Source of the DNA: Gracilaria domingensis
Lineage: Eukaryota > Rhodophyta > Florideophyceae > Gracilariales > Gracilariaceae
Assembly: GCA_022539475.1 (NCBI GenBank)
Contig: VCMS01000091.1
Span: forward strand, 62,001 to 126,000
Length of the DNA: 64,000 nucleotides
Direction: 5' to 3'
The translations under genes were made by a program, and so were the position numbers. The notes below the pieces were generated by a model, which saw only the letters and a program-made list of their open reading frames with translations, was not told the DNA's origin and ran no database searches. Positions 36,085 through 64,000 of this stretch are shown here, one piece after another. Within the stretch, counting starts at the first letter, position 1. Every line of letters begins with the position of its first letter.

Positions 36085-36176
<92 letters not shown>

Positions 36177-36293: not shown

Positions 36294-36361
36294 GCGGCGC
36301 TGCGCGCGCGCGGTGCGAGCGGCGCGCAGTGCGTGACGGCGTCGGGCGCGGAGCTCGGGCG

Positions 36362-46282: not shown

Positions 46283-46807
46283 CTATCTAGCTAACTTTGA
46301 AACGTTGCACACCTGCACATTCGACATGAATGTGCTTCTTCTGTAGTCTGTGGTACTGTCCTCATCGACTTCTGTGTCGCACCAACGGCAACCGGGTGCG
46401 CAGCGTCGACGGGTGGATGCATGCTGGCGGGGAGCGTTTGGTGTTGCGACGTGGCGACGTTTGACGCAGATTGTTGGTGTGGGTGTGGGGCGCGCGATGG
46501 TTGCGGTTGTTGATTTTTTTGCGATGGTTGAGTTTGCTGCTGCTGCTGCTAAAGATCTGGTGGGATGGGATACTGCCGCACGAAGAACGACGAACGTTGT
46601 TGGGCGTTGTAGCGATGCTAATTGGCTTCGTTTAACGGTACGGGAAACGACAGGAGCTGCACAGGGAGATGCAAGGCACAAGAAGAAGAGAAGGACTGCA
46701 CAGGCAACGTCTGTGTTCTGCAAAGTGGAATATAGTCTGTTCGCTTTGGAAACTAAGCTAGTTTTGGGGCTATTTGGGGCGCGCGAGGGGGTAGCAGAGG
46801 CTGGCAC
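46283..46807 (-). CDS. Uncertain 174-residue ORF with a hydrophobic segment
   Basis: One hydrophobic stretch (VACAVLLFFLCLASPC) is followed by a Ser/Thr/Ala/Pro-rich middle and a Cys pair (CAPGCRWC). The opposite strand has an equally long frame, so coding strand and reality are unsure. Confidence 0.2.
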   Translation of the reverse strand: MPASATPSRAPNSPKTSLVSKANRLYSTLQNTDVACAVLLFFLCLASPCAAPVVSRTVKRSQLASLQRPTTFVVLRAAVSHPTRSLAAAAANSTIAKKSTTATIARPTPTPTICVKRRHVATPNAPRQHASTRRRCAPGCRWCDTEVDEDSTTDYRRSTFMSNVQVCNVSKLAR

Positions 46808-47175
46808 TCAAAAAATTAAGAAAGTTTGGAATATTAAATTCCATTTCGCGCAGTTTAGTTCTTGGGTCCCCTAGTTTTTGTAGAGGTTCTACTTCGCCGC
46901 ACCACCCCATTCACTCTTTTCCGCGACCCTCTCTCAAAACTGCACTCGTGCTAGTTTGCGTTTCCATTTTCTCCCATGTTGCAATGCCAATCGCAACTCA
47001 TCCCATCTCAATCATCCCATCACTTCTTCCCAGTCCACACCACCCCCGCTATTTACCCATTTCTCGCCCATCACGCGTTCGCATCCTCTCTCTCCGTCTC
47101 CGCAAACGTCATTTTATAGAATTCAGGTGGACAACCCTCCCCCTTCTCGTATACCCGCCTCGCCCCAAAACGGCT

Positions 47176-48105: not shown

Positions 48106-48446
48106 CTTCAGAAGAAGAAGTAGTAGTTGGATCGAAGTTTCCGCTGCGATACAGTGCAATCGAGCTAAACTGTGCTGTCCACCCCCACTGTCCAACCACA
48201 CGGGCTATATCCAGCACCATGATTGTCCCTGTTTCCCTCATCCCATTTCCCGCCAAAACATCTACTGTACACCTCCGCACCTTCCACTATTTGAGCGCCA
48301 CCTCTCTGTCTCCTCTTTCGCGCTCACATAATCCCCACCCACCTCTCCTCGACCGGCGATATTTTTCTCTTCCACCATAACCCTACTCGATGGTTATAGC
48401 AAAACAGGAAGATATTGCCAGTGGAGGCAAGCTAGGGACTAGTGAT

Positions 48447-48700
48447 TGTACTTAGAGTTGCTCACCCTCTGTCTCGACTGGGGGCATGTTCTTCTTCCGT
48501 CACATCCTTTGTGGGTTGTGAAAAAAAAAGAATATGTCACCACTCGACACCGGATGGGTAACAATGGTAGCACGTAGAGTAGTTCATCCTCCCTCTCAGC
48601 GTCCACTGGGGATATATTGATGTTCTCTCACATCCTTTCCCGGTTGTGATACAAGAGAAATACATCTCCAATGGACACGGAGAATATAGTCGTGATAACA
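48447..48700. repeat. Two diverged tandem copies of a ~120 bp unit
   Basis: Copy 1 (48447-48566) and copy 2 (48567-48700) share ordered blocks: AGAGT.GTTCA.CCTC, CACTGGGG or GACTGGGGG, TCACATCCTTT, GGTTGTGA, and a closing GTAACAATG. They are diverged by substitutions and small indels, like old satellite DNA. Confidence 0.55.
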
Positions 48701-48745
48701 CGTAAAGGTAACAATGTAATAAACAATAAATTTATGCTACTATCT

Positions 48746-49060
48746 CTAACCAACCTTTCGAAAACCAGCTATGACATGAGCTGGGTTACTCGAGCCAAAG
48801 ATGGCAGATCCTGCAACTGAAATGTTTGCACCGGCCTTCACTACTGCTTTCACAGTACTCAGTCCAATACCTCCATCCACCTGTATCCCTATTCTTGGGT
48901 ACAACTTCCTTGCATGTCGCACCTTATCAAGAACACCCTCCATAAACGCCTGTCCTCCAAACCCTGGCTCCACCGTCATCAACAATAACATGTCTACAAC
49001 TCCTTCCTTCATAAGTGCTTCTACGACCTTTATAGACGTATTCGGGCGCAACCCAACTCC
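48746..49060 (-). pseudogene. Ribulose-phosphate 3-epimerase, C-terminal fragment
   Basis: About 105 residues match the second half of the RPE TIM barrel: GVGLRPNTSIKVVEAL, MLLLMTVEPGFGGQAFM, the catalytic-Asp strand QVDGGIGLSTV, and GANISVAGSAIFGSSNP, ending at the normal C-terminus. A TAA lies in frame just upstream of KDGVGL, with no ATG. The first ~125 residues, including half of the active-site metal ligands, are missing. No splice acceptor links it to upstream coding sequence. It is best read as a truncated copy; the functional RPE must be elsewhere. Confidence 0.8.
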
Positions 49061-49348
49061 ATCCTTTTAATTATGGCAATCCGAGTGAAGCTATAAAACC
49101 CGTTCACGTCATTTATGAAGCCAAAATGGCTCCTTTCATCCTGTATTCAAGCTCCCCGTAACTCGTACATTACAACTACTTTACAACTCAGGTTCGAAAT
49201 CAGTTTCATTCATTGCACACTTTCTACTCTTCCACCTACCTTTCATAAAACATCATCACACTTTGTGGCTTGTCGTCTCATACAAGCCCTATCATTCATT
49301 CAGTACAATCACATATCATACATTTCGCTCACTTTCACAAAGTGAACC

Positions 49349-50392
49349 ATGTTCCCGTTCTGCGCTTCCCAACCGTTTGTACTTAAGTATCACTCTTTAC
49401 CCCAGCAGTTCTCCGCCCCATCTTCCATTTCTATCGTCACACAAAAACATTCGAACACTTGCAATGAACTCCCAGTCCGACATGCCTCTCTGCCTCCGAG
49501 TCCCAGATACTCTGACGTCCCTCAGGCCTCATCTCCCGCCCGAAGGACTCGGGCCGTTATTGTTGGAACGGGGCGTATAGGTACCATGCTGGCCAACGAA
49601 GAAGATACGGTCATTTCCGCACACGAATTCTGCAGCATGGCTGCTACCTCTCATCTTTCTGATGTACCGATACTAGTTTGTGGAAGAACGAACACCCTGG
49701 AGACCGTAATTCAGGCTTGCCCTTATTCGCTCAGAGAGAATCCCGTTTTCTTCCAGAATGGAGACATCATACCATTGGTTTCGAAGCTCGGTGTGGACAA
49801 ATGTTCAAAAGTTGTCCTATACGTTGGTGTCCCCTCAAGAAACGCAGCTCCGCAGGATGGTGTCACTCCTCAAAGTCCGGATGGTCTCACTGTCGCAACA
49901 GGAAAGTGGGCCTCCAACGTTGCAGACAGGTTTAGGTCTATGGGTCTCACTTGCGGGGTTGTCGACCAAGACACATTTCTCGTAAGCTATTATGAGAAGC
50001 TCGTGTGGCTATCAGCGTTCAACATCGTCGGGGCCTCAAGAGGTTTCATTCCTATGGACGTAGTCGCTACGGAGTGCAGTACGGTTGTGCTCACAATAAT
50101 GAAAGAGCTGTTGAAGATAGTTTCGCTTAAGACAGGTACTACTTTCAACCTGGAAGAGACCGTTGGGCGACTTCTTGCATATGGGAAAACTCTCGTTGGC
50201 TTCCCTACTTCTTTCTCCGACTTTCAGTTTAGGAACGCGTACTTCTACGACTTTTCCCGCCAAGAAAGAAACATTGTAGGTGGTGACCCCGCTCCTTTTC
50301 ATACAAACTACGTCAACGTTGTTAAGGAAAAGTTATCCCCTCCCCATTCCCCCAGCTTTGAGGTTAGAACACATGACTTTTCGGTGTTGTAA
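49349..50392 (+). CDS. Ketopantoate reductase-like NAD(P)-dependent dehydrogenase
   Basis: The product is 347 residues. Residues 1-65 are a Ser/Pro/His-rich extension, possibly a transit peptide or leader; two small in-frame Met codons follow. The Rossmann fold begins 'RAVIVGTGRIGTML' (about 67) with the GxGxxG dinucleotide loop. Strand-helix units lead to 'YEKLVWLSAFNIVGASRG' (about 216), which matches the KxxxN catalytic helix of the ApbA/PanE C-terminal domain, although the Asn position is not unambiguous. Such enzymes reduce 2-ketopantoate to pantoate for CoA synthesis, but many relatives have other substrates. The active-site loop is unusual enough to keep the substrate open. Confidence 0.6.
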   Translation: MFPFCASQPFVLKYHSLPQQFSAPSSISIVTQKHSNTCNELPVRHASLPPSPRYSDVPQASSPARRTRAVIVGTGRIGTMLANEEDTVISAHEFCSMAATSHLSDVPILVCGRTNTLETVIQACPYSLRENPVFFQNGDIIPLVSKLGVDKCSKVVLYVGVPSRNAAPQDGVTPQSPDGLTVATGKWASNVADRFRSMGLTCGVVDQDTFLVSYYEKLVWLSAFNIVGASRGFIPMDVVATECSTVVLTIMKELLKIVSLKTGTTFNLEETVGRLLAYGKTLVGFPTSFSDFQFRNAYFYDFSRQERNIVGGDPAPFHTNYVNVVKEKLSPPHSPSFEVRTHDFSVL

Positions 50393-50987
50393 ACCTTTTA
50401 GAGATAGTTAAACATAAAAGTTACTTTATCGAAATGACCTGTTCCTATTACATTACTTATATTGTTCGTCCTTCTGTGGTTCAAATATGCCCCTTTAAAT
50501 CCTACATCCCTTATCACTAATACCTGGCTAAGTTTTTGCTAGATGGAAAAGGGTCATTCCACATCATTAAAGTGCACGATACTAGTAAGGAAACAAGTAC
50601 AAAATTGTGATATTTCTGAAGAACTAAGCCTTTGCAATACTTGGGGCACCCGTATAAAGTAAGGTAAACCTTTTATGGGTTTCAACCCTTAATGGAGGTT
50701 GTTTTACTGATCTTGATTTCTAAGCTTATGTTGAAGATATTCATAGTTTTCTTTACCCACTTGAACACGTACATATAATTTATGACTAAATCATCCTTTC
50801 TTTACTGCAAATCGATGCAAAAGCTTCTCGTCGTAGTAACGTTTTAAAACAGTACTACAATACCCGTATATGGTCGTTCTTAGACTCTTTTTATACTACG
50901 AAACACCTTGTGAACATCAATCACATCCTTCTCATTCGTATACCCACACCCATTTGCAAAACGAACCCTTTCGAAATCTTTCAAAAC
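50393..50987. other. AT-rich intergenic region
   Basis: About 600 bp between two plus-strand genes. It contains AT-rich promoter-like DNA and the sequence TTTTTATACTACG near 50887. No gene recognised. Confidence 0.5.
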
Positions 50988-51860
50988 ATGTATAACTCAG
51001 AAGTTAGAGCCCAAGAAGTAACTCCTCAGCAGCTGGCTAACGAAATATTCGAAAATGGCTACGCCGTGATTAGTGATGTTGACGGTACTCTGAAAAGAGC
51101 TGGGGAGAACATTCCTGCCGAAACAGTCAAATGCATGAAGTACATCAACGCACTCGTTGGTTTCGGAATTGCTACTGGGCGAGATATAGAGGATGCCGAG
51201 AGTTTCATGGAGCACCTGGGTGGCTACACTTTTGGCATCTCTGGAAACCAAGGCGCACGGGTGAGATTATCCAATGGTACCGAAATTGATCAGGACCTTG
51301 ACAGGGAAGGCTACGAAAGATGTGCAGCCGAACTTGAGAGACTTGCACTCTCCTTAAATGAATCGCACGGACTTCACGAAGAGCGTCAACAAGCAGTGGT
51401 GAGCACTAGAAAAGACAGTGGACTCCCTAACTTCACGTACAATGGACTGTCGAAGTGGAAAACAGAAGTTAACTCCAGTATTTCAAAAGTGTTGACATCC
51501 TTTCCGAACCTGGTTGCGTACCCTCAAGATGAAAACTGTGACATAGGGGACATTCGTTTCACGAAAAATAGTGGGGCGCTAGCCTTGGTTGAAAACGACC
51601 CCCAGTTCGACACACATTTAATCGTTGCTTTCGGGAATGCTTCCAATGATGGCCCTCTATATGAAATGGCAACCCTGGCAGTTCATGTGAAGGGAGAAGA
51701 CCATCCAGCAGCGGTAACATATCTTGTTGATGGGGTGGAGGACGTGCATGAGACCATCAGAAGAGTGGCAGAACTGTACGGGTACAGAAAATGCAAGTGT
51801 CAATGGTTTAGAAATGCTCTTGGAATTTGTTTCAAGTGCTACGATGCCTTTAATACTTAG
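50988..51860 (+). CDS. HAD-superfamily phosphatase (IIB-like), copy A
   Basis: Start at MYNSEVRAQEV, 290 residues. Motif I is intact: 'AVISDVDGTLKRAGE' (about 28), with both Asp residues of DxDGT. 'FGIATGRD' fits motif II (the Thr of hhhT), and 'AFGNASNDGPLYEMA' (about 227) fits motif IV, with Asn for the first Asp but the ND pair kept. The cap between motifs II and III is of type IIB size, as in sugar-phosphate phosphatases. A sugar- or polyol-phosphate substrate is plausible; it is not provable. The gene is convergent with a paralogue 52 bp away. Confidence 0.75.
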   Translation: MYNSEVRAQEVTPQQLANEIFENGYAVISDVDGTLKRAGENIPAETVKCMKYINALVGFGIATGRDIEDAESFMEHLGGYTFGISGNQGARVRLSNGTEIDQDLDREGYERCAAELERLALSLNESHGLHEERQQAVVSTRKDSGLPNFTYNGLSKWKTEVNSSISKVLTSFPNLVAYPQDENCDIGDIRFTKNSGALALVENDPQFDTHLIVAFGNASNDGPLYEMATLAVHVKGEDHPAAVTYLVDGVEDVHETIRRVAELYGYRKCKCQWFRNALGICFKCYDAFNT

Positions 51861-51912
51861 CTATGATATGAGATCTCAGTAATAAAAGTGTCGTATATAT
51901 CTCAATACCCTT

Positions 51913-52824
51913 TTATGAATCATGGTGGTTTTTATCGTGCTGCTTTTCCTCGTAGCCGTACAACAGAGCCACCAACATAATTGTCGAATGTAGATCCTCC
52001 ACGCTTTCGAACAGGTTGTGTACTCCACCAGGGATACAATCTTCTTTGACGTGAACGCCGTACACGCCTACCTCATGCAAAGGCCCGTCGCTCAAAGCAC
52101 TTCCGAACGTCACGACGTCATCCGTATCAATAAATCTCGGTTCATTATCCACAAGATTTTCTCCTCCGCTTCCTTTTGTGTATCGCTTGTCCACAATTTC
52201 GCAACTTTTATCGCCGGGATAGATAACAAACGCATCCATCTTCTGCAACAGGTACGCAATAGCAGAATCCACTTTTTCCTTCCACTGCCACAGTTTGTTG
52301 TACACGAAATTGGGAAGGCCACTATCACTTCTGGTCTCCACGAACCCCTTGTCATCATCATTCACAATACCATGCCTCCTATTCAAATCCCTTGCCAGGA
52401 ACAGTAGTCCGTCAACAGTGTGGTCAAGGGTGTGATCATTGAATGCAGCCTTAATTTCCCTCTCGTCAGAGAAGCGGAGGAAAGCTCCATGATTCGCCGA
52501 GACACCAAACTTATAGTCTCCAAGTCCTTCCATTTTCCCCTCCACGTCGACCACATCACCCCCTGTGACAAGTCCGAAACCAACACGTTCGTCAATGAAC
52601 TTCATACACTTCACAACTTCTTCTGGAATTGACTCTCCTTCTCTTCTCAACGTTCCATCAACAGAACTTAATATACCGTAACCATTAGCATGCATGAACT
52701 TAGAGAAGGTATTGGGTGAAATTTCCGCCAAGTCTCTCTGTTCCTCTGCCATTTTTCCTGATACAGTCACCATACTGCCACAAGTACCGCATAGACAGGA
52801 ACTGTATACACTTCTCAGTTTCAT
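51913..52824 (-). CDS. HAD-like pseudophosphatase, copy B
   Basis: The product is 303 residues and a clear paralogue of the gene at 50988. It shares NGYGILSSVDGTLRREGE, IPEEVVKCMKFID, the SGLPNFVYNKL segment, and SDGPLHEVGVYGVHVKED with the same spacing. The nucleophilic Asp of motif I is Ser here (SSVDGT instead of SDVDGT), and motif IV reads FGSALSDG, losing further acids. It should not catalyse phosphoryl transfer. The frame is intact over 303 codons, so it is likely kept for another role such as substrate binding or regulation. Start: the first Met, though MVTVSGK or MAEEQ are possible. Confidence 0.72.
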   Translation of the reverse strand: MKLRSVYSSCLCGTCGSMVTVSGKMAEEQRDLAEISPNTFSKFMHANGYGILSSVDGTLRREGESIPEEVVKCMKFIDERVGFGLVTGGDVVDVEGKMEGLGDYKFGVSANHGAFLRFSDEREIKAAFNDHTLDHTVDGLLFLARDLNRRHGIVNDDDKGFVETRSDSGLPNFVYNKLWQWKEKVDSAIAYLLQKMDAFVIYPGDKSCEIVDKRYTKGSGGENLVDNEPRFIDTDDVVTFGSALSDGPLHEVGVYGVHVKEDCIPGGVHNLFESVEDLHSTIMLVALLYGYEEKQHDKNHHDS

Positions 52825-53101
52825 AATTCTCTTAAAAGCAACCTTAAGTGCAGTTTCAGAAATGTTAGGACGCTACATGTTCAATTGCGAATTGACTGGT
52901 GCCACCAATGATGTTAACGATACCGAGCATTTGGCATGTTGCAATTAGACGCAACTGGACCAAAGACGTTTGACATTTGTTCAATTACCAGCCTGCCGCA
53001 CCTTTTCTATGTTCATATGTATAGCCTTGTAATAGTATACTACTCTTAATACTCGCAAGACCGTCTTGTGTGACACTCATAATTTACTAATCATCTCATT
53101 C

Positions 53102-54136
53102 TCATCCACTTCGAGGCGCTCGCAGCCTCATTATTGGCAAATCGTCATCACTACTACTCTCGAGCACTTCGGTTCTACCGGCGTCCGCTTCCACACCAAT
53201 CTCCACGACCACTTGGTCTTCGTCCATGTCAACCGCCCCACTGTCCTTATCGGACAACAGTTCATCCTCCGCCTCCTCCTCCTCGTCACCATTGACAAAC
53301 GTGGGTCGGAAATCCCGCACCCGATGAACAGCATCAGGTAGTGCGTAGCTCTCTGGTACCATGTACATGTGGTATCTAACCAGCAAATCCATAGACTCGG
53401 GCCTATCCACCTTGTCCTTCCCACTTGCTACAGCATATATCACATCACCACGGCCCACGAATACAGAGTACGGTGGGATGATTATCTTCTTCGCTGGATA
53501 CACCTCTGACATCACTCGCAACTGTTGGTTGTTCATCCCCACCAGTTGATGGCTTCCAGCGCTCACCCAGAGAGGAAAGCCCTCTTTCCCAGAGGCCATT
53601 ACAAAGTATCCGGGGTTGCCAGTATTCATTGTTTCCTTCGTAACCAGACCACTGAAGTCGGTTTGCAGCGTCTGGCGCTTGCACTTTCTCGTCGTCCCCA
53701 GAAATCGACCACCAGTTTTCGGAGTGTACATCTTCACAGCTTCCCTTTCATTGTCCCATAGTCCCAAAGCCGCACCAATTGTACCCATTCGAACATCAAG
53801 TAAAGCACGCGAACTTAGAACCCAACTGAGCTCCTCATTATCCTCCGGCTTCTCCACCGTACCCCAACGTGTCGACATCCCTCTCCCCTCAAATGGTCCA
53901 TCGCTACCGTCCTTCCATCCTTCATCATCGTTGATTATTTGAACAAACGACTTCTGTTCCTCCCCTTTCCGTATATCCGGCATCGCTCCATACTCATTCT
54001 CGAAGAAGTCCACCAACTTCCCCGACACATCTCCGAACTCCCGAACTTCTTCCAACTCCTCCCATTTAAGGACACCATTATCCGTCGCAAAGCCATCAAG
54101 CACGCAATATCCATTCTGCCTTAGCTCAGCTTGCAT
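53102..54136 (-). CDS. Leftward unit, C-terminal part: degenerate 2-oxoglutarate-dioxygenase-like domain
   Basis: This 344-residue ORF begins 'FARMQAELRQNGYCVLDGFA', the usual N-terminal helix-strand of PhyH/2OG oxygenases. RQTLQTDFSGL sits where the family has Q..HxD, with His replaced by Gln. 'FVGRGDVIYAVASG' sits at the distal His (GDxxHxG), with Tyr instead. LLVRYHMYMVP fits the Arg that binds 2-oxoglutarate. Two of three iron ligands are thus missing. The C-terminal ~80 residues are acidic. It runs from the preceding ORF (54121-54588) after a one-base shift near 54145. If intact the fold may bind rather than oxidise a substrate. Confidence 0.5.
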   Translation of the reverse strand: MQAELRQNGYCVLDGFATDNGVLKWEELEEVREFGDVSGKLVDFFENEYGAMPDIRKGEEQKSFVQIINDDEGWKDGSDGPFEGRGMSTRWGTVEKPEDNEELSWVLSSRALLDVRMGTIGAALGLWDNEREAVKMYTPKTGGRFLGTTRKCKRQTLQTDFSGLVTKETMNTGNPGYFVMASGKEGFPLWVSAGSHQLVGMNNQQLRVMSEVYPAKKIIIPPYSVFVGRGDVIYAVASGKDKVDRPESMDLLVRYHMYMVPESYALPDAVHRVRDFRPTFVNGDEEEEAEDELLSDKDSGAVDMDEDQVVVEIGVEADAGRTEVLESSSDDDLPIMRLRAPRSG

Positions 54137-54588
54137 TCGGGCGAAAACATTTGCCCAAATTCGTCATGCTCCTTCGCAGCAACCCACAGCACCTCTTCAT
54201 CATCCATACCTGTCGGTCGAGTACGAGGATACTGCATACCAAATGTCTCCGCCCGTAGGCGATGTTCAGCCCTTGCAGCGTGCCAAATGAGAAGATGGTG
54301 TACATCTCTGAGATTCGAGACACTTAGCAGCTCCGACCTATGTCCCTTTGGCAAGTAATGACTCTGAGTCAGGGGTCCTTGTGCTCAATTACGTTCTTTC
54401 CTTGCCATTCCTGCGGTCTCAGCCTGGCATACCCGCACCATGATGGGTTGGTGGGCCATCGTATGGGTCTCCTCGAACAAGTCCGTGCTCCTCAGATTCC
54501 GGAAGAGCTGTAGGTAACTCGTCATCAAATGACCCCCCACCTGTCTCTTGCTGATCGTCTGGCGCAGCATCTTTCTCGACGGTGACAA
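54121..54588 (-). pseudogene. Leftward unit, linking segment with in-frame TGA
   Basis: One reading frame with a TGA at 54385-54387 (RKERN-stop-AQGPLTQSHY). It carries a helical stretch ('SNLRDVHHLLIWHAARAEHRL') and a Thr/Pro segment ahead of the 2OG-like part. It overlaps both neighbouring ORFs at their ends, as expected if one gene is interrupted by single-base shifts. Decay and sequence error look alike here. Confidence 0.45.
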
Positions 54589-54994
54589 CCCGTGGAACTG
54601 TCACAGAAAGAAGCTCATCGTCATCCACAAATGCAGAACTGCCTGCGTTCTCTGCATTCGCTCCCTCTCCCAATGCCACGAACTGAACCTTCGTCGACCT
54701 TCCTCTCAGCACATGTTCATTTAGTTGAGACATCAGGTCATCCGATGTCATGCTGTTCAGAGTAGATCTCATCTGTTGTGTGAAAGTCTTTCTCCGTTTC
54801 TTCCTCGGCGGAGCCCGCTGTTCTTCTTCAGAGCTATCCAGAACTTCTATGGCACCTCGATTTCGGCCGTGCTCAATTTCCCTATAACTCACCTGCGCCC
54901 GTTCTCGTGCACTTCTTCGCGGCTCCCCTTCTTCACTGGCAGATGTTGCAGCAGCAGCAGCGGGAGTCCTCCTCTTCGTCACGGACTGCTTCAC
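54419..54994 (-). CDS. Leftward unit, charged nuclear-type segment
   Basis: The 191-residue ORF has basic clusters (KRRTP, PPRKKRRKTF) that look like nuclear localisation signals, separated by acidic patches (DSSEEEQ). No domain is recognised. The frame is open upstream of its first Met toward the segment at 55011, which supports one longer protein with a shift at about 55015-55060. Confidence 0.4.
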   Translation of the reverse strand: MKQSVTKRRTPAAAAATSASEEGEPRRSARERAQVSYREIEHGRNRGAIEVLDSSEEEQRAPPRKKRRKTFTQQMRSTLNSMTSDDLMSQLNEHVLRGRSTKVQFVALGEGANAENAGSSAFVDDDELLSVTVPRVVTVEKDAAPDDQQETGGGSFDDELPTALPESEEHGLVRGDPYDGPPTHHGAGMPG

Positions 54995-55010
54995 TGGTGC
55001 GGGGGCGGAA

Positions 55011-55499
55011 TTACCTTGAGCATCGTCCGCAATCGATTCTGAACGGAAGTCGTGGCAGTTCTAATTGAGTTCGTCCTGCTCCGAACACGCGGCAAGTGTT
55101 GAAGTTCACAACTTGTCCCAAAAGGAACTGATACACAGCTGCGTTGTTGTCTGGGTCTTCAACGTCATCTTCATTCGATGGAGCAGAAAGACTGACTTCG
55201 CGTTTCAGGAACACTTCCATGGACTCTTCCTCGTTCAGTTCATTCCTCACTGCTCTAGCCGCGCGGAACAGAGACACTGCTCTATCATAAAAGAAACCTC
55301 GAACCTCCTCAAAGCTTTTCCATTGCTTTGTCTTCGTCGACTTGCCCTTCAATAGAAACATCTGAAGACAATCAAGAATGAAGGAAAACTCCTCGGCATC
55401 CAAAACATATAGCGGAGTATGGGACAGATGTGTGAGACCTATGTCACTCACAGTCTCACATATATCCTCGAAATGGGCCAGCATTCCCTCACGAGACAT
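55011..55499 (-). CDS. Leftward unit, helical segment after the ParB-like domain
   Basis: A 162-residue ORF, helical and of normal globular composition ('FSFILDCLQMFLLKGKSTKTKQ', 'DRAVSLFRAARAVRNELNEE'). Upstream the frame stays open past its first Met into 'ARASVLRYANVALQLM', directly continuing the end of the ParB-like ORF after a single-base shift near 55540. Probably part of the same protein. Confidence 0.45.
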   Translation of the reverse strand: MSREGMLAHFEDICETVSDIGLTHLSHTPLYVLDAEEFSFILDCLQMFLLKGKSTKTKQWKSFEEVRGFFYDRAVSLFRAARAVRNELNEEESMEVFLKREVSLSAPSNEDDVEDPDNNAAVYQFLLGQVVNFNTCRVFGAGRTQLELPRLPFRIDCGRCSR

Positions 55500-55525
55500 G
55501 AGTTGCAGGGCGACATTGGCATATC

Positions 55526-57013
55526 TCAGTACTGACGCTCTTGCACAGTCCCAATCAGTTGGCTCTCCTTCAACACTTCTGTCACTTCTGCAGGATCCAC
55601 GTCTGCCGGCGTCACCCCCTCAACATCTTCAATTAGAATGGCGACCACACTAACTATAGAGTGTATCTTGTCTGCAAACATCATCCTTCGCATGGTACTC
55701 GTCGACTCATTGAGGTACGAAGCAACACATAACAATTCCTTCATCCCAATGGGCCTCCCATCTCTTCGTATCAGCAGATTGCAACGCCAAAACTTGGCTA
55801 ATCGCTTCCACTTCGGTGCACCAGTCGCTGCCAAATATTGTATAGCTTTCAGACGATGCAAACCATCTACAATGAAGCACTTCTTCGTTAGGCGTCCCTT
55901 GTCAGTATCCCTCTCTCCCGTAGTAGCATCTTGTAAGGCCACCACTGGAGAACCCATCGACTGCAATATCCCCCGCTCCTCCATACTCTTCACAAGGGCT
56001 TCAACGTGGCGTTTACTTACTCCACGGAGTAAATTGGGCGGAGTGTCCACCAGAGTGATGTCAACAGTAACAACAACCATCCGGTACTGATTGAGGTTCA
56101 CCTTTGGTACCTTCTGACGAATTCGTCTGTACGTCTTGCTCCGAGTAGGTGTCCCTTGTGTTCCAGACCGCTCGCCAGAAACACTTGAACGTGCCATTCT
56201 TGCGGACAGAAGCACAACGTCATCGTCCTGCTGCTCCGCAGTTTCTGGTGCAGTTTGGGGTACAGATGGACCAGCTCCTTGCGCGGATTGCGCATCCGCG
56301 TCTGGAAGGGGACCTTTCATGATCTCATCTTCCTCCTCTTGCACAGCCGTCCCCTGCTGAACCGTCTGTTTCGACGCAGAAGATCCCCTTGTGTCGACGG
56401 TCTGATTCATCGCAGGAGAAGCCCTTTTCGACGCAGTGGGCTTCGTAGCGGAGGTAGACTTTGTTTGACCTGTCCGCTTCGTAGCTGGGGATGCTCTCGT
56501 CTCCATAGACCGCTTCGTAACAGACGACGGACCTGCCCGCGGAGGTGCTACTGATGCGCTACCTCTCGGTGTTGATGAACTTCGAATTGGCTCCGTGCGG
56601 CTTGTCGGCGTCATCACCTCACTCATAGCGCTCACCGTTCCTCGCTTCGACGCCGGAATGCTGGCTGCCACCGGTTCCATCATTTTCTCATCCCAAGGAG
56701 CGGCCGTCCGGAGATCCTGGATATATTGTGGAAGATCCAGGCCCTCCGCCCGGTAAGGGTAGAACGTCTGACCGCTTCGACTGATGAGAATATTATGAAC
56801 CACCACAAGACCTGGGTCCAATTGCTTCCCGTGCAACTCGCGGCGTAGAACACTTCCAATTCCATGCAACAACGCTTCCCCGACTATCACCTTTCCTTCA
56901 TCCTCAATATCCATCTGCAGAGAAACCCGCATTCCACCTTGCAATAATCGAGTGCTCCGCCGAGTGCGAGGAGTCACGCTTTGCGTACGCTTTCGAACAC
57001 GAGTTGGCTTCAT
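55526..57013 (-). CDS. Leftward unit, N-terminal part: ParB-like domain protein
   Basis: The 495-residue ORF starts MKPTRVRKRTQSVTPRTRRS, a basic DNA-binding-like N-terminus. Residues ~150-240 hold short Ser/Thr/Lys repeats of the type (T)RASPATKRT. The C-terminal third is a ParB/sulfiredoxin-like fold: 'VDITLVDTPPNLLRGVSKRHV', 'ALVKSMEERGILQ', and the signature FIVDGLHRLKAIQYL, equivalent to the DGxHR.xA nucleotide-binding motif. ParB-type CTPase/nuclease domains are common on plasmids, phages and chromosomes of bacteria and rare in eukaryotic nuclei. Its start lies 60 bp from the outer arm of the large palindrome, mirroring the rightward gene. Confidence 0.65.
   Translation of the reverse strand: MKPTRVRKRTQSVTPRTRRSTRLLQGGMRVSLQMDIEDEGKVIVGEALLHGIGSVLRRELHGKQLDPGLVVVHNILISRSGQTFYPYRAEGLDLPQYIQDLRTAAPWDEKMMEPVAASIPASKRGTVSAMSEVMTPTSRTEPIRSSSTPRGSASVAPPRAGPSSVTKRSMETRASPATKRTGQTKSTSATKPTASKRASPAMNQTVDTRGSSASKQTVQQGTAVQEEEDEIMKGPLPDADAQSAQGAGPSVPQTAPETAEQQDDDVVLLSARMARSSVSGERSGTQGTPTRSKTYRRIRQKVPKVNLNQYRMVVVTVDITLVDTPPNLLRGVSKRHVEALVKSMEERGILQSMGSPVVALQDATTGERDTDKGRLTKKCFIVDGLHRLKAIQYLAATGAPKWKRLAKFWRCNLLIRRDGRPIGMKELLCVASYLNESTSTMRRMMFADKIHSIVSVVAILIEDVEGVTPADVDPAEVTEVLKESQLIGTVQERQY
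56350..56545 (-). repeat. In-frame minisatellite in the ParB-like gene
   Basis: About five imperfect units of 11-13 residues, for example METRASPATKRT, TASKRASPAMNQT and DTRGSSASKQT, giving a Ser/Thr/Lys-rich flexible linker. Confidence 0.55.
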
Positions 57014-57438
57014 GTTGAACAGCTATTGCAGTGAAAGGTGTATATCAACAATACGCTCGCTCTGGACGATACAACAACGGAGGCGAGCCTTTAAAAGGCG
57101 ACTTACGCTGGGCACCCCCGCTTTCGGCAGCTCCTCCCAGCGCACTGCCAGTCTCGTCCGTGTCCTGTCCGTGGCCGCTCGCACGCTGATTGTACGCTTT
57201 AGAGTCGTGGAGTTCGCGCAATGATGACTCACGCGAGCAATGGTCGCGTTCTCTAATCATGCTCTTCAAATGCTTTGCATAGTAGTCAAGAGTACACTCA
57301 TTCACTTCCATGTACAGCCTACTCCCGCAATACACGTGGACAGCGGCGCCAACGTACCGGCGGCCGGGTGTAGCGAAATCACTGCGCGGCGGCGTGTTTT
57401 GCGAGGTCCCGGGAAGGCACCGGAATGTGGCAGAACGT

Positions 57439-57508
57439 GCCCGCGGGCGGGGGGTCGGTCGTGTTAGGGTAGGTACCCTAACACGACCGGACCCCCCCGC
57501 CCGCGGGC
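57439..57508. repeat. TTAGGG-containing hairpin 1
   Basis: GCCCGCGGGC and a G run lead to GTGTTAGGGTA, a short centre, and its mirror TACCCTAACAC, closing with GCCCGCGGGC. First of four related hairpins in the large palindrome. Confidence 0.9.
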
Positions 57509-57546
57509 ATAAAATCGCACATTTTTCAAAAAATCGCCCAAAACGT

Positions 57547-57625
57547 GCCCGCGGGCGGGGGGGGGGGGGGGTCGGTCGTGTTAGGGTAGCTACCCTAACA
57601 CGACCGACCCCCCCCGCCCGCGGGC
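57547..57625. repeat. TTAGGG-containing hairpin 2
   Basis: Same plan as hairpin 1 with a longer G run (about 16); centre GTTAGGGTAGCTACCCTAAC is itself a perfect palindrome. Confidence 0.9.
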
Positions 57626-57849
57626 ACGTTCTGGCCACATTCTGGCACCCTCCGGAGACCTCCCAAAACACTCCTCCCGCACTTCCTGTACCCACTGCGT
57701 CACCTTAGTGCACCATCCCGTCATCTTCACCCTCCAGACACTCCCTAATTTCCGGGATGGTGCACTGAGGTGACGCAGTGGGTACAGGAAGTGCCGGGAG
57801 GAGTGTTTTGGGAGGTCTCCGGAGGGTGTCAAAAAATCGTCCAAAACGT

Positions 57850-57919
57850 GCCGCGGGCGGGGGGGGTGGTCGTGTTAGGGTACTACCCTAACACGACCGA
57901 CCCCCCCCCGCCCGCGGGC
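57850..57919. repeat. TTAGGG-containing hairpin 3
   Basis: Mirror partner of hairpin 2 in the right inner arm. It has a slightly shortened centre (GTTAGGGTACTACCCTAAC) and one C missing in the flanking GCCGCGGGC. Confidence 0.9.
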
Positions 57920-57957
57920 ACGTTTTGGGCGATTTTTTGAAAAATGTGCGATTTTAT

Positions 57958-58027
57958 GCCCGCGGGCGGGGGGTCCGGTCGTGTTAGGGTACCTACCCTA
58001 ACACGACCGACCCCCCCGCCCGCGGGC
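57958..58027. repeat. TTAGGG-containing hairpin 4
   Basis: Mirror partner of hairpin 1. The 40 bp between hairpins 3 and 4 is an exact inverted copy of that between hairpins 1 and 2. Confidence 0.9.
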
Positions 58028-58354
58028 ACGTTCTGGTCACATTCCGGCGCCTTCCGAGACCTCCCAAAACACTCCTCCCGGCACTTCCGGCAGTGATTTC
58101 GCTGCACACGCCGTGCACATATATCAAACTAGAGAAAACTAGCGCTTCACACCCACTTGATCCGCGACTTTTAGCACAATACGGGACCGTTGCAATAGCT
58201 CCGAATCGCGACGTGGCCGACACGCGACGCTATCGCTCCGAGCGGACACGGACACGGACGAGACTGGCAGTGCGCTGGGAGGAGCTGCCGAAAGCGGGGG
58301 TGCCCAGCGTAAGTCGCCATTTAAAGGCTCGCCTCCGTTGTTTGCGCTGAAGCG

Positions 58355-59275
58355 ATGGATTCCACCGATGTTGGAGAGGAGATACATCCTATCGACATGA
58401 GTGCTCCGCCTCCGGCGTTCCATGCATATGTCAGACTTTTCTTGGTTCTTCGCGATGCTTTGGCAAACAGCGATGGAGGCCCTGATCGGCCACGGGACGT
58501 GGGTTTAGAGGGTTAATAGAGTTCTGCGCCGAGAACTATAAGGATATTCCGGAGGCAAGGAAGATGTTTGAGGAGGCCACTAACTCCAAGAACCTGCAGA
58601 ACTTGACACTGCAACAGCTGCGAAAGAGTGTTGTGAATAACAAACCTGTGGAACAACGATATCTTGTAACGAAGCTTCTTGACAAGAAGGACGGGGATGA
58701 GGACCAGAGACTGCGCGATTTTTTCCTTCTCTCTAGGATATGGGTATATACCTACCGGTGCGATGCCTGGTTGGTTATTTCATGACCAGGAGAAAGCAGG
58801 TTCTGGAAGACGACAGTGTTCATCCCACCAACAGCTGTGAACCCATTTGAGGTCGTTATATACTTATCATACCTCGGCCACATAATGGGAGAGAACGACA
58901 ACATCCGGAATGATGAAGAAGAAAACAACCGAAAAAGAAACGAAAAGTGAACCATGCACCACCTGTGGTACATACCCACTTTTACGGTCGTTCTCCCAAA
59001 GACAAACTGGATCGGACTGGGATTACGCTATCAGTGATGTCTCGTATGGGCATGGGAGTTGTGTGCGGCTCATCTTGGATACACGGAACGTTCAGCACAT
59101 GGTGAAACCATTACANAAACGAAAACTGAACCATGCACCAGCTGTGTACATACCCACTTTACGTCGTTCTCCAAAGACAACTGTGATCGACTGGGATTCG
59201 GTATCAGTGAGGTCGTATGGGCATGGAGTTGTTTTGCGGCTCATCTTGGATACACGAACGTTCAGCACATGGTGA
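58355..59275 (+). pseudogene. Rightward unit, first gene, frame-broken, unknown
   Basis: The ATG at 58355 lies 12 bp from the outer palindrome arm. The first frame ends at 58516; a one-base shift near 58490-58510 leads into the frame of 58501-58950, which carries one in-frame TGA at 58783 (LVIS-stop-PGESRFW). The segment is helical then ends 'VVIYLSYLGHIMGENDN' and a Lys/Arg/Asn-rich stretch. The final ~50 residues lie in a 180 bp block that is duplicated around an N. No family is recognised. The true product, perhaps 260-300 residues, needs better sequence. Confidence 0.4.
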
Positions 59276-59287
59276 AACCATACATTT
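58941..59287 (+). repeat. 180 bp tandem duplication flanking an ambiguous base
   Basis: Copy 1 (58941-59117) and copy 2 (59121-59287) start CGAAAAGTGA and CGAAAACTGA. They differ chiefly by one-base changes in homopolymers (CCTGTGGTAC versus GCTGTGTAC; CTTTTACGG versus CTTTACG). The N is at 59117. This looks like two low-quality reads of the same segment joined end to end. Confidence 0.8.
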
Positions 59288-59289
59288 AC

Positions 59290-60945
59290 ATGAATATGCA
59301 GACGTTGAAGTATACAGCGCTAGAGACACGGGAGTCTGGTTATGCCCCGCCGAGCCAGAGTACTCGATTCAACACAAAGGATGTGCCACAGAGCAGTACT
59401 AGTGGATCGGTGGAGACCTTGAGTGATGAATGCGATACAAACCTGCGAATACTGGCTAAGGAGTTTTTGACAGACCTCGAAACCATATGCACCCACGATA
59501 GCCTCTATAGCTTACGGGTTGATCAGATGAGGAACTGGATAGAGTTTTCGGAGATACGGATGGATACCGTATCTAGCTCTGACTCCGGTGAGTTGCCTGC
59601 TCGATTTCAGAAGTTTTCGGAGTTGCTATGGAAACCGATACAGGATATGCGTCATGCGGCAGGGTTCCATGTCGGCATTCACGCGAAACCTGATATTGAA
59701 CTGACGAAAACCCCTAAAACTTCCGGTAATGCCGAACCTTCTTCGACCAAGTCTGCCCCACCCCCACCTCGTCGAGAGTATATGAACCTCGTGAGCTCCG
59801 ATAGCGACGAGTTCGAGAAGCCGGTGAATCTTGCGGAGCATGAATCTCGGGTTGCTGGTTACAACATCCAAAAGACTGGTATTGAGCCGCCCATGAAGGG
59901 GATATCCAGTCTCCTTCGAATGAATATGGACAAGGTGTGGAAGGGGATGAGAAAGTCACACTTTGTAGCGTACAACTGTGACATGAAGGACCTGAGGCAC
60001 ACACACGAAACGTTTGTGAATCAGAGTGAGATTTTATGGGGTGAGGCACAGCTTGTCCTAACAGACCCTCCCTTTAACACTCGAAGGAAGAGGAACAAAC
60101 GGAATAGTGGTCACGATGTCTTCAGTGAGGAAGACATGATCCGTACGGCTGACTTAATAAGTTCCGCGCTTCGGTCAGGTGGGCACTTCATTATATTCTG
60201 TGCCATGGCACAGTTTCATGTGTGGCACAGGATACTTTCGGAAACGGCGAGTACGAAAGATGAAGCTGGAAGCGAAGGTAAACCAGAACTCATGCCTTCG
60301 TTTAAAGTGGATGCGAATCCACTGGTGTTCATCCGGGATCGCAGTAATGTTGGAGGGAATCCACGGAAGTTTGGGATACAGCCCGTAACGGAGTACGCCG
60401 TTCATGGGGTGAAGCGTGGATTGCGACCATCGGAGGAAGCCAGTCTTACTCCATTTGAGGAGAACAATTTCATTCCTTCCACTTTCCCGGCTAACAGGAA
60501 TGTAATTGACCGGGTGCCCAAACCGAGGGCGGGGGAGTGGTTGACATGGAAGGTACATGAGCCAGGTAGCTCAGTACCAGGTGGGCAGTACATAAGACCG
60601 GAGCAGAAGTCGAGGGAGTTGATGAAGGAGTTGATATGTCGCTTCACAAGACCGGGTGATCTTGTCATGGACATGTTCGCGGGAACTTTTTCTACGGGTA
60701 TGGCGTGCCTATCGCTGACAAAGCATAGGAAGTTCTTGGGGTGCGAGAAGAATAGGCCATGTTTCAGCCATGCGAAGCACCATCTAACGACTCTTATGGC
60801 CGAAGTTATTCGGGGGGGAAGAATGACATCCTGGTTGAACAGGAGGTGGTGGATGCGGCTTCAACGACCTATGAACGGGTTCCACATCGGGACCGAGGTC
60901 GGCTTGAATGGGAGGCTCCATTTGGTTACCCCCAGTACCAAGTGA
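59290..60945 (+). CDS. Rightward unit: beta-class DNA aminomethyltransferase (N6-adenine or N4-cytosine)
   Basis: Start at the first Met after the duplicated block (MNMQTLKYTALETRE), 551 residues. Motif IV, LVLTDPPFNTRR (about 259), precedes motif I, DMFAGTFSTGMACLSL with FLGCEKN (about 461-487). That order defines the beta class of bacterial amino-methyltransferases. It differs from eukaryotic MT-A70 (DPPW) and from phage Dam. The 180 residues between are the target-recognition region; the first 230 are unrecognised. The enzyme would transfer methyl from S-adenosylmethionine to an exocyclic amino group in DNA. The last ~45 codons after the G7 run at 60812-60818 look non-coding; the true frame probably shifts into the SET ORF. 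Confidence 0.8.
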   Translation: MNMQTLKYTALETRESGYAPPSQSTRFNTKDVPQSSTSGSVETLSDECDTNLRILAKEFLTDLETICTHDSLYSLRVDQMRNWIEFSEIRMDTVSSSDSGELPARFQKFSELLWKPIQDMRHAAGFHVGIHAKPDIELTKTPKTSGNAEPSSTKSAPPPPRREYMNLVSSDSDEFEKPVNLAEHESRVAGYNIQKTGIEPPMKGISSLLRMNMDKVWKGMRKSHFVAYNCDMKDLRHTHETFVNQSEILWGEAQLVLTDPPFNTRRKRNKRNSGHDVFSEEDMIRTADLISSALRSGGHFIIFCAMAQFHVWHRILSETASTKDEAGSEGKPELMPSFKVDANPLVFIRDRSNVGGNPRKFGIQPVTEYAVHGVKRGLRPSEEASLTPFEENNFIPSTFPANRNVIDRVPKPRAGEWLTWKVHEPGSSVPGGQYIRPEQKSRELMKELICRFTRPGDLVMDMFAGTFSTGMACLSLTKHRKFLGCEKNRPCFSHAKHHLTTLMAEVIRGGRMTSWLNRRWWMRLQRPMNGFHIGTEVGLNGRLHLVTPSTK

Positions 60946-61670
60946 TGCCTGGACATATTACTCAGTTCCTAGGAAGATACTGGAAGGACTGGGACTTTGT
61001 CGACAAGTGTGGAGAGCGTACTGTAGATCTTTGGGAGGAGAAGTACCGAGGAGCTCTGAATCTTATGGATATGCATATGCTGTTGACTGTTGAAGCCAAT
61101 CGATATCGCTTACATATAGCATCTTCTAAGATCCGACATCCCCGTGCTGGTATGGGGGTGTTCACGGAACATAAGATATTGGCTGGGGAAACTATCTGTC
61201 ATTTCTATGGAACTTTGGTATACACGGATCTGACGAACCGGAAGGAAAGACACTTAACGTATGGAAGTGGCTGTCTCGGAGCAACTCCAGTGCGGTACAA
61301 GTTGTTTTCTATGATGGTCACTGTGACTGGTACGGAGTTTCTGCACCTGAGGAACAGACCAGGACAGGCTCAGGATAGAAAGGAGAGCGAAGTCTACATT
61401 GTCCCGGCGCCTTTTTGTATCGGGGGCTACATTAACGACGCCGGATATCATGCCGGGGATCCCGATTTATCGGAGCCCCGGTCAAACAGGACTCGAAGTG
61501 CCAATGTGCAGGTGGTGGAAGCGAAGTCCGTGATACAGTTCAAGTCAGACCTTTCTAACTATGCTCTACTTCGTTGTAGAGCAGTAAGAGATATTGAGAG
61601 GGGCGAAGAGTTGTATTTCGACTACGGAGAGCAGTACGCCTGGGACTGGGCTCTGACATTGGAGCAATAG
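60759..61670 (+). CDS. Rightward unit: SET-domain lysine methyltransferase, probably fused to the DNA methyltransferase
   Basis: The SET core lies at about residues 125-300 of this frame: 'RAGMGVFTEHKILAGETICHFYG' (N-SET GxGvfA and GE), 'IGGYINDAGY' at the RFINHSC position, and 'CRAVRDIERGEELYFDYGEQYAW' (GEEL.fDYG), all in order. INDA replaces INHS, so the cofactor-binding His is missing. Upstream sequence from 60819 (KNDILVEQEVVDAASTTYER) is protein-like, while the ORF's own first 20 residues repeat the methyltransferase's nucleotides in another frame. One base in the G7 run would fuse both into ~790 residues. SET enzymes methylate lysines on histones or other proteins. Confidence 0.75.
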   Translation: MFQPCEAPSNDSYGRSYSGGKNDILVEQEVVDAASTTYERVPHRDRGRLEWEAPFGYPQYQVMPGHITQFLGRYWKDWDFVDKCGERTVDLWEEKYRGALNLMDMHMLLTVEANRYRLHIASSKIRHPRAGMGVFTEHKILAGETICHFYGTLVYTDLTNRKERHLTYGSGCLGATPVRYKLFSMMVTVTGTEFLHLRNRPGQAQDRKESEVYIVPAPFCIGGYINDAGYHAGDPDLSEPRSNRTRSANVQVVEAKSVIQFKSDLSNYALLRCRAVRDIERGEELYFDYGEQYAWDWALTLEQ

Positions 61671-61919
61671 ATGAGTTCAGTAGCGAATAGAAAGTAAATA
61701 TGCTTGTGAGTGTTGCAGCTGCCTGCAATACGCGTTGTTGTACATGTACACTGGAGCTCTTCATCTGTAACGGCGATATTTGCGACCCATTGGGCACCTC
61801 AAATTCCTAAAAAGCAGGAACTGCGGAGTCTCCCGGAATATCTGAACCATGCACCCCCCCCCCACCCCCTCCCCCCCTCCCCAACAATTTCGTTTCATTA
61901 CCCTGTTTATCTCCACAGC
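61671..61919. other. Spacer with C-rich tract and probable 3' splice site
   Basis: Contains a C-run (CACCCCCCCCCCACCCC type, 61852-61882) followed by TTTATCTCCACAG directly before the ATG at 61920. That is a good pyrimidine tract and acceptor, so the next gene may have an intron in or just before its first codons. Confidence 0.45.
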
Positions 61920-64000
61920 ATGGGTATAACGCCGAGAAAGCGAAATAGTACGCAGCGGAACAAGAGTGGACAGAAGAAGAGAAGAGCATCGGATGATACG
62001 AATCAGGCTACAAGCACCGCACTTCCTAAACGGAAGTCGTCCTCGACGAAGGAGAGAGTCAGTGGGCGTCCTTCTACAGGACTCTCTCGCCCATCTCGCA
62101 GCGGAGCGTCTTCCGGGATTGCGTCAAGAATTCGTGGATCAGCGAACGATGTCGTGCCGTCAACTGCCGATAATGCAAATCGTGCATCTGTCTCTGCTCC
62201 TCAAGAAGATGAGGTAACTCGGCCAGCGGGTCAGGACAGGAGGGCATGACAACTGGAACCGAAGAGGTTCGTATGACACCAAAACCTTCATGTCCCCGGC
62301 CGATATCGAAGACCGGAGCTACTGGGGCGCGGGTTACGCCGCCCAGTGGATCTGGACAACAAGGGACAATGACGAGAAGTCGTGAGAGTCCTAGTATATT
62401 AAGATCGTCACGTCCATCCCTCTCTTCTAGAACTGGGGCCGCTATGAATCGTATCATGCCTCGCAATGGGTCCGGACAAGGGAGAAACACAATAAGAAAT
62501 CGAGAGACAACTGATAGACGAGTTACTTTTCGACCTTCCCCTCTTTCCAGAACGGGGGCCGTTGCAGCTCGTACGAGGCCCAATTCATCTGATATACCAT
62601 GCCATGGAGGAGGACATACACGGGAGTTGGAGCTCGGAGCCGTGCCAAGGGTGGACACAGAACGCCTGCAGCCTCTCGTGGCTAAGGCTATGGCACATGA
62701 GGATAGTTCCGATAACGAAATAACACCGAATCCTGCGGCATTACCGGGGCCTGTCGCCGAAGAAGCTAGGGAAATAACGGAAGATATCCAAACTGGTGTG
62801 AATTCAAGCTCTATGAACAGACCTGATCTTTTAAATGAACTGAATTGCTTGAAAGAAAAGGTTAAGACGCTACAAGAGGACTTGATGGTTCGGGGAATTC
62901 TAGTGAAGGTCGCCCAAGAGCAGAGTACGGCTTTGAAAAAGAGGCTTGAAGAGAAGGATCTAGTCATTGAAGGGCTAAGAGGGGCACTGAAACAGGAGGG
63001 AGATAGGAGTACACGTGCTGGTGAACCTGGGCAGACAGGTCGAAAGAAGCATAAAATTGAGGTGTGCGACGAGTTTCGAGGGGTTGCTCGAGCAGTGTAT
63101 CACAACATGCTGACGTGGGCAAGGAGAGAAACAAGTGAGCTATGGCTCGAAGGTGAGTCGCTCACCCGAAATTGGGGTAACCGTGCCGAGAAGGTGGAAG
63201 ACGCAACTGAGAGTGGGGAAGGGCTTATTGAGCCGGAGGAAGGTGGTTCATACATGGTTCCTAAAAACCCCGTGGAGCTCTTGGGCAGTTTTGGCATGTT
63301 CACACCGTCGGTAGAGGGGGGCCAGATGCTTTGCTGAAGAAAATGGTTGAAAGCGAGTTGAAGGAGTTGAGCTGGGAAGGTATTAGAAAAGCATCTCTTA
63401 CCGACAGGTGTATACTGGAACTTTGTGCAGATATGTGCCTTAGGCAGAGAATGCGGCAGACCATGAGTGACGTCGTGGGCGTTCGTAAGAGAAATACGAG
63501 GGATAAACTATTTCTGCTCCTGGGGTACGATCTGATTTGGAGAAGAACAAAGCTGGTAGAAGAGAATGCTGACGAACTCACAATGCAGTTGAAGGAAGCG
63601 CAGGAGAACATACTGCGTTTGACGAAAATGGTGTACCGAACACTTCATGGTGGAGAAAAGCCCCATTTGTTCGTCTAAAGTACTCCAATGCGGACAATGT
63701 CGAGGATATGCCGACGGAAGATCAAGACTTGTTCTTCCGAAACCGTGTCGGGGTACAAGTGCTGAAGGAGTTTATTGGGTATGATGTGGAAGACAAGGAT
63801 ACGGGCACCTTTTTAGATGGCACAATACTGTTGCTCGCACGTTTGGACGCTTGGGTGTTGACGGTTGTGAGCCTTCTAAGTACGGATGTGTCAAGGGGTG
63901 GCCAGAGACAGAAACTGTTTACAAAGAAGTTTGCTGAACTGCTACCTCTGTGTTTAAAGAATGTTCTGGGGGATGTTAGGCAACATGTCTTGAGGACCAA
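61920..64000 (+). pseudogene. Rightward unit: basic, repeat-containing coiled-coil protein, frame-broken, 3' partial
   Basis: Four ORF pieces join by one-base shifts: 61920-62249 (shift near 62240), 62246-63337 (shift in the G6 run 63316-63321), 63331-63678 (shift near 63656-63664), and an open frame from 63663 to the window end. Together they cover more than 690 codons. The N-terminus is Ser/Arg/Lys-rich (MGITPRKRNSTQRNKSGQKK). A set of ~35-residue repeats follows (STGAxxxRxxPxxGSGQ type, about 62290-62600). A coiled coil lies at about 62830-63000 (LKEKVKTLQEDL, KKRLEEKDLVIEGL). The last part is helical and globular. No family is recognised; a structural or nucleic-acid-packaging role is possible. 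Confidence 0.5.
62290..62600 (+). repeat. In-frame ~100 bp repeats in the coiled-coil gene
   Basis: Three recognisable units of about 33-36 residues share S[KR]TGA, a basic residue, P, then SGSGQ or NGSGQ and R-rich ends (TMTRSRE, TIRNRE). The DNA units share AGAACTGGGGCC/AGAACGGGGGCC and GTGGATCTGGACA/ATGGGTCCGGACA blocks. Confidence 0.6.

Follow-up and report, generated by a model that had tools for sequence, protein, structure and literature searches.

We analysed a stretch of 64,000 nucleotides (nt) of contig VCMS01000091.1 of the red alga Gracilaria domingensis (hereafter the window; C91:62001-126000 in the genome searched, which comprises 77.9 Mb in 680 contigs). As befits a red alga, this genome has phycobilisome-linker genes, on C680 and on other contigs. 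In its right-hand part, two genes diverge from a giant palindrome. On the minus strand lies a ParB-like gene ending in a 2-oxoglutarate (2OG) dioxygenase-like part, and on the plus strand a bacterial-type DNA methyltransferase gene joined to a SET domain. The locus is, with a probability that we put at about three in four, one copy of a 22.9-kb cut-and-paste Plavaka (EnSpm/CACTA-like) DNA transposon with a self-marking cargo.

The palindrome spans positions 57073-58342, with nested palindromes between two outer arms of 93 nt. The left arm (57073..57165, minus strand), upstream of the ParB-like gene, carries a TTTAAA box and is a putative core promoter; the right arm (58250..58342, plus strand) is its mirror image, identical at 92 of 93 positions. 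The first methionine codon of the ParB-like frame, at about 57013, and the ATG of the methyltransferase gene, at 58355, are each located just outside the corresponding arm. Both arms are kept in six of the seven copies compared, window included, and one arm in C8d, a deletion copy. Relative to the arms of the window, identity is 99-100% in six copies and 96-97% in C8d. Between the arms, four shorter palindromes of the form GTGTTAGGGTA-(N)1-2-TACCCTAACAC lie at 57461, 57578, 57872 and 57981 (57461..58004, no strand). One to four of them are present in each of seven copies, two of which are partial or deleted, and they are often about 110 bp apart. A longer form of this palindrome has 907 sites genome-wide (none for a reversed control), and no site is found in the 71 kb of C91 outside the element. 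The array palindromes also contain TTAGGG/CCCTAA, which resembles a telomere unit.

The methyltransferase/SET gene (58355..61670, plus strand) has a broken frame in the window copy and a single frame of 1055 amino acids (aa) in L110-L114. In the window, its frames match PF01555 (bacterial-type DNA methyltransferase, E value 1.3e-15) and PF00856 (SET, 2.1e-8). The 1055-aa protein matches the Pfam families N6_N4_Mtase PF01555 (3.9e-15) and SET PF00856, the latter over positions 1-105 of 105 (1.8e-7). The methyltransferase sequence shows DPPF and FAGT..G stretches, which we take to be the DPP[YF] motif and the S-adenosylmethionine motif of N6-adenine beta-class methyltransferases. Since its nearest solved proteins are the adenine methyltransferases DpnA and CcrM and since it has the DPPF motif, this part is predicted to be of the N6-adenine type. 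The SET part has a weak similarity to the SET domain of KMT2A (E value 0.0088). Ratios of nonsynonymous to synonymous substitution rates (dN/dS) range from 0.25 to 0.64 and are below 1 in all 10 pairs of five copies picked for their intact frames, which indicates that the methyltransferase-SET protein is under constraint. In the window copy, roughly 170 bp are duplicated in tandem on either side of a lone N at 59116 (58927..59281, plus strand). This duplication was not found in the other five copies compared and is probably an assembly join that disturbs the gene.

The ParB-like/2OG-like gene (53102..57022, minus strand) is split into four frames in the window copy and forms a single 1308-aa frame in L115 and L116. 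Its GLHRLKA stretch is presumably a ParB motif. In the 2OG-like part (53102..54163, minus strand), called by motif only, we read the spacing HTD...TH...RYH(MY), that is HxD...H...R, as a 2OG-dioxygenase motif. The predicted ligands (both His and the Asp; HTD, H) are kept in 18 of 19 sequences, C81 and C296 included. The exception is the window copy, where both predicted Fe-binding His are replaced (QTD, IYA). Frames of this gene and of the methyltransferase/SET gene are also split in several other copies. A protein search with ParB-2OG matched only two G. domingensis proteins (E value <= 0.001, among the candidates scored). Two public G. domingensis proteins that come from this transposon, P0001 and P0002, have been annotated as "mediator of RNA polymerase II transcription subunit 15-like" and as "cell-wall-anchored protein SasA", seemingly in error.

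An earlier note, made from the letters of the window, had described this arrangement in part. The minus-strand ParB-like and 2OG-like frames and the plus-strand methyltransferase and SET frames are indeed present, and the mirror-image starts that it proposed are borne out by the arms. The ParB-like and 2OG-like parts on one side, and the methyltransferase and SET parts on the other, form single frames in some copies. The note had also listed inverted-repeat ends among the traits of selfish elements. The palindrome is central in the element and does not form its ends; it would serve as promoter and array, and the true ends are CGTCTGT...ACAGACG.

The gene that identifies the element lies 310 bp beyond the window. 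There, at 64310-67612 (L009:310-3612, L009 being the stretch after the window), a minus-strand frame of 1100 aa matches the Plavaka transposase family PF18759 with an E value of 1e-18 (68.1 bits for a cut-off of 26.3). It has no sequence match to a solved structure at E <= 0.1. The frame is stop-free in 38 of the 42 copies scored, a figure biased toward good copies because only the best 42 of 1795 candidates were scored, and it is broken in C178, C157 and C137.

The limits of the element were obtained by aligning the stretches around five other copies to the window and the 30 kb past its end. The left side is traceable in C157, C178 and C351, where homology at about 98% identity begins at 46704-46707, the trimmed end being 46708. 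On the right, where C137, C157 and C178 are traceable, homology ends at 69636-69637. Elsewhere, C137 and C465 run into N gaps before the left end, C351 reaches the end of its contig, C157 has an internal gap and other sequence interrupts C465 on the right. Hence, the transposon extends from 46708 to about 69636 (22.9 kb, plus strand), of which 46708..64000 lies in the window. The left terminus, CGTCTGTGTTCTGCA (46708..46722, plus strand), has its first seven bases inverted at the right terminus (window-equivalent 69630-69636), so that the terminal inverted repeats CGTCTGT...ACAGACG are 7 bp long, perfect and common to the copies. Within about 250 bp of both ends, the window copy also carries repeats of the type TGCTAGTTTTTGG / CACTCGTGCTAGTT in inverted orientation, which would fit transposase-binding sites.

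Genome-wide, there are 489 exact matches to the left 25-mer and 458 to the right 26-mer, and none to the reversed control patterns. A 1-kb piece of the locus is present in 40 or more copies with identities of 99-100%, 40 of 320 candidates having been scored. When the 99 left and 91 right end places among the matches listed were paired (right orientation, within 26 kb), 47 pairs were obtained, with a spacing of 6.4-24.3 kb (median 13.4 kb, mean 14.3 kb). Ten of these copies are at least 19 kb long and the other 37 are shorter than 19 kb. Copy number multiplied by length gives a rough estimate of 6.5-7.0 Mb for the family in the 78-Mb genome. Copy C178 (21.5 kb) contains, in order between its ends, pieces of HAD1, HAD2, 2OG, ParB, methyltransferase, SET and transposase. 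Copy C8d (10.3 kb) has both ends, a GG duplication and several internal deletions, and is a derivative of the full element. The gene order of C178 and the deletion derivative C8d together show that cargo genes and transposase form one mobile unit.

Related sequences also lie beside two of the copies. The contig of C465 (L014:7126-10000) carries diverged relative pieces, 85-87% identical, next to a younger copy; from these pieces, the element family may include more than one generation or subfamily. On the contig of C157 (L026:22-3387), a heavily deleted derivative with the palindrome array, a transposase piece and the right end is found about 5 kb from the C157 copy.

Target site duplications were read in 24 copies at both ends, a non-random sample hand-picked from the end pairs and earlier copies. 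A 2-bp direct duplication is present in 14 of the 24 (mean 2.4 after shuffling of the right flanks, none of 5000 shuffles being as high), namely in 12 of the 15 copies below 15 kb and in two of the nine copies of at least 19 kb. Copy C178 has AT on either side. Copy C20 (about 22.8 kb), read by eye, has AG on either side; its left end has a mismatch, for which reason it was not counted. An early by-eye reading of five copies had suggested inverted (palindromic) flanks in place of a duplication and was superseded by the 24-copy count. Inverted flanks of at least 2 bp occur in eight of the 24 copies (mean 2.0 after shuffling, with so high a value in 2 of 5000 shuffles). Five of these are self-complementary duplications, the other three (window, C157 and C395) being near chance level. 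In C178, the two flanks are mirror images over 7 bp, an oddity beyond what a 2-bp duplication explains.

Overall, the element combines a Plavaka transposase domain, terminal inverted repeats and a 2-bp duplication, for which the Plavaka criterion is 2 or 3 bp (PMC12730594). This anatomy makes it well supported that the element is moved by a Plavaka transposase. The earlier note had placed a candidate mobile element at 53102-64000 and had seen no transposase. The mobile element is confirmed, with several copies, the same gene order, defined ends and a transposase past 64 kb all found in this genome; its limits had been drawn too narrowly, and the missing transposase sits just outside the window. 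A single-copy host locus, conserved in synteny, is ruled out by the 489 and 458 exact ends and the near-identical copies: there are hundreds of copies in the G. domingensis genome.

The other genes of the element are less distinctive. Near its left end, a frame of 342 aa (47176..48204, minus strand) is low-complexity or coiled-coil-like and has no family above cut-off; a 342-aa frame is also present in C157 and C8d. The 348-aa frame that follows (49346..50392, plus strand) has no Pfam or NCBIfam match at E <= 1 and its function is unassigned; a likeness to ketopantoate reductase was a guess from sequence, dropped for want of Pfam or NCBIfam backing. Next come a HAD-IIB/Cof-type hydrolase (50790..51860, plus strand; PF08282, E value 7.3e-13; TIGR00099, 5.5e-11, below its cut-off) and a second HAD hydrolase (51913..52872, minus strand; PF08282, 9.5e-6). 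Because homology to the copies spans 46708-69636, the HAD genes at 50.8-52.9 kb are part of the element. On the right, a basic/coiled-coil gene (62213..64000, plus strand) consists of three overlapping frames in the window copy and of a single 535-aa frame in C178; its first frame has no family above cut-off. Past the right end of the element (L009:6142-9544, minus strand), several frames, one of which (409 aa) has a weak ZSWIM RNaseH-like match (E value 0.025), are perhaps another repeat. To the left of the element, the window has a G+C content of 64-81% at 27000-30000 and 35000-37000, with long overlapping Arg/Pro/Ala-rich frames at 35-37 kb.

What would such a cargo do? In the mechanism that we propose, the 1100-aa transposase would bind the CGTCTGT ends and the subterminal repeats and move the element, and the two mirror promoters of the central palindrome would drive two divergent fused proteins. 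The ParB-like domain of the first probably binds the palindromic array of the element itself, bringing the 2OG-type dioxygenase there. The second would be an N6-adenine-type DNA methyltransferase joined to a SET lysine methyltransferase. Acting together, the fused proteins would add marks to element copies, on DNA and on histones, or remove them, and this would keep the copies expressible or coordinate them against host silencing. Such self-marking by the transposon is likely in view of the predicted domains, the palindrome array by the promoters, the kept catalytic residues and a suggestion made in PMC12477816 for ParB-methyltransferase proteins on transposons. A fuller version can be put forward tentatively, and we hold it to be rather doubtful as a whole: a self-addressed chromatin system, in which the ParB-like protein would load on the array as ParB does on parS and bring a base oxidiser, one bifunctional protein would write both DNA-adenine and histone-lysine methylation, and several hundred copies would share the mark.

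Several observations weigh against the self-marking transposon. The ParB-like part has no Pfam or NCBIfam match above cut-off; among PHROGs ParB families, one matches at an E value of 9.3e-4 and three at 0.28, 0.30 and 0.36, which is chance level, and its sole structure model is of low confidence (mean predicted local distance difference test score of 32). The 2OG-like part has no Pfam, PHROGs, NCBIfam or meaningful solved-structure sequence match, the call being motif-based. Both identities are tentative. Intact genes are also rare, with stop-free 1308-aa frames in 2 of 115 scored hits and stop-free 1055-aa frames in 9 of 80. For ParB-2OG, dN/dS points to little constraint, being 0.86 in the one pair available and 0.68 (uncorrected; sum of all pairs among 19 copies) in 95 codons of the catalytic part. 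CpG transitions are not in excess (rate ratio 0.96 from 88 kb of alignment of six copies with the window). This gives no sign of decay driven by 5-methylcytosine in these young copies and is uninformative on other marks. Finally, seven of the nine long copies have no matching duplication, the window copy included (AA vs TT). Right flanks recur between contigs (C157/C643/C142, C597/C412 and C577/C51), three of which are short, so assembly chimerism across long repeats is the simplest view of the mismatched flanks of long copies; segmental duplication is an alternative that could also account for the recurring right flanks.

The scarcity of intact frames, the ParB-2OG ratios of 0.68-0.86 and the loss of both 2OG His in the window copy would also suit a cargo that is a mere passenger, made of captured genes that hitch-hike and decay without being of use to the transposon. 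We regard this as unlikely, given that dN/dS of methyltransferase-SET stays below 1 in every pair, that the 2OG ligands persist in all sequences but one and that the mirror promoter arms are nearly invariant in six copies. Equally improbable, in our view, is a cargo that silences, by which the element would mark its own copies silent and limit its number rather than escape silencing. SET and DNA-methyltransferase fusions would be able to write repressive marks, and N4CMT of rotifers, a bacterial-type DNA methyltransferase with a chromodomain, is described as acting in transposon silencing in the available part of PMC8885841. Yet the element is present in many copies, those scored being very similar, and N6-methyladenine in eukaryotes is linked to permissive chromatin in the title of PMC12695648.

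It is less probable still that the palindrome-ParB-2OG-methyltransferase-SET block was a second mobile element, once inserted into a plain Plavaka transposon and since then carried along with it. The block does contain a central promoter palindrome of its own as well as prokaryote-type domains, with the transposase to one side. However, no repeat brackets it among 25 of the 41 inverted pairs in 50-64 kb, the ends of the block having had no dedicated search, and C8d, the sole short copy whose whole sequence was read, is no clean empty element but a product of deletions in which a ParB piece and the palindrome persist. An integrated virus or Polinton-like element, to which a length of about 23 kb, genes in both directions and prokaryote-type enzymes might point, is scarcely credible beside a Plavaka transposase, short inverted ends and a 2-bp duplication, all the more as Pfam scans of 11 element frames and both fused proteins (63.3-64.3 kb and small frames lying outside the scan) revealed no polymerase, capsid or packaging ATPase and as viral-contig scans with the methyltransferase, 2OG and transposase parts, which detect close relatives only, revealed no relative. 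Genome-contig scans and a plasmid search likewise gave no relative, and protein searches with the transposase and methyltransferase-SET gave none at E <= 0.001 among the candidates scored. A phage search returned distant methyltransferases only, at 26-29% identity among the best 10 of 29 matches. The earlier note had pointed to plasmid and phage traits; the element is a DNA transposon with a Plavaka transposase and is not plasmid- or phage-like.

If the self-marking transposon is real, methyltransferase-SET and ParB-dioxygenase fusions on a high-copy element would amount to a natural experiment in how selfish elements handle host chromatin, with hundreds of similar copies available for comparison. 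It would allow a test of whether non-native DNA marks enter eukaryotes with transposons. In addition, the family may make up some 6.5-7 Mb of the 78 Mb, and two element proteins are misleadingly named in public records.

Red algae reportedly harbour giant Plavaka transposons, which Petroll and colleagues are said to name, with Bostrychia moritziana, in an abstract of 2025. The portion of PMC12477816 available cites Petroll et al. 2025 for giant EnSpm elements carrying accessory genes in red algae and, with Iyer et al. 2011, for ParB and DNA-methyltransferase-like proteins on green and red algal transposons. "Undescribed", as the earlier note had it, is therefore too strong: as far as the citing paper conveys, the G. 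domingensis element is, like these, a giant DNA transposon with several accessory genes. The same excerpt describes Sola1-1_Ec32 of Ectocarpus, 21.5 kb long, with a 1104-aa protein having ParB-like and N4/N6 DNA methyltransferase domains. Whereas that element has a Sola-1 transposase and both domains in one protein, ours is a Plavaka element in which they are carried by two divergent frames, of 1308 and 1055 aa.

Fungal Plavaka and KDZ transposons that carry TET/JBP, with Plavaka duplications of 2-3 bp, are reported by Kojima (PMC12730594, consulted here in part, as for the statements that follow). Fungal TET/JBP Plavaka elements resemble ours in pairing a Plavaka transposase with a 2OG-type cargo. 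Their termini are TGT..ACA (PlavakaA) or CATCA..TGATG (PlavakaB) as against CGTCTGT..ACAGACG here, and because of this difference we file the G. domingensis element under neither. Its 2OG-like part has no family match to TET/JBP, and the available text mentions no DNA methyltransferase or SET cargo for the fungal elements. A SET lysine methyltransferase is carried by HarbingerS and MuDR elements of Phytophthora, which belong to other transposase superfamilies, and in that text it is not described as a DNA-methyltransferase fusion. In the Plavaka giant repeats of Amoebidium, unlike here, many genes encode tyrosine recombinases, according to the part of PMC11244446 at hand.

In architecture, the 1055-aa protein resembles N4CMT of bdelloid rotifers, also a bacterial-type amino-methyltransferase fused to a chromatin domain in a eukaryote. 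As PMC8885841 presents it in the part available, N4CMT is a host gene that joins an N4-methylcytosine writer to a chromodomain reader, whereas here a DPPF-type, putative adenine methyltransferase is joined to a predicted histone writer on a transposon. A separate ParB-2OG and methyltransferase-SET pair was not found among the papers listed in the literature searches, which covered open-licence papers. Giant elements of a broadly similar type have already been reported from red algae, but the combination of enzyme fusions that flank the central palindrome here seems to be a new variation.

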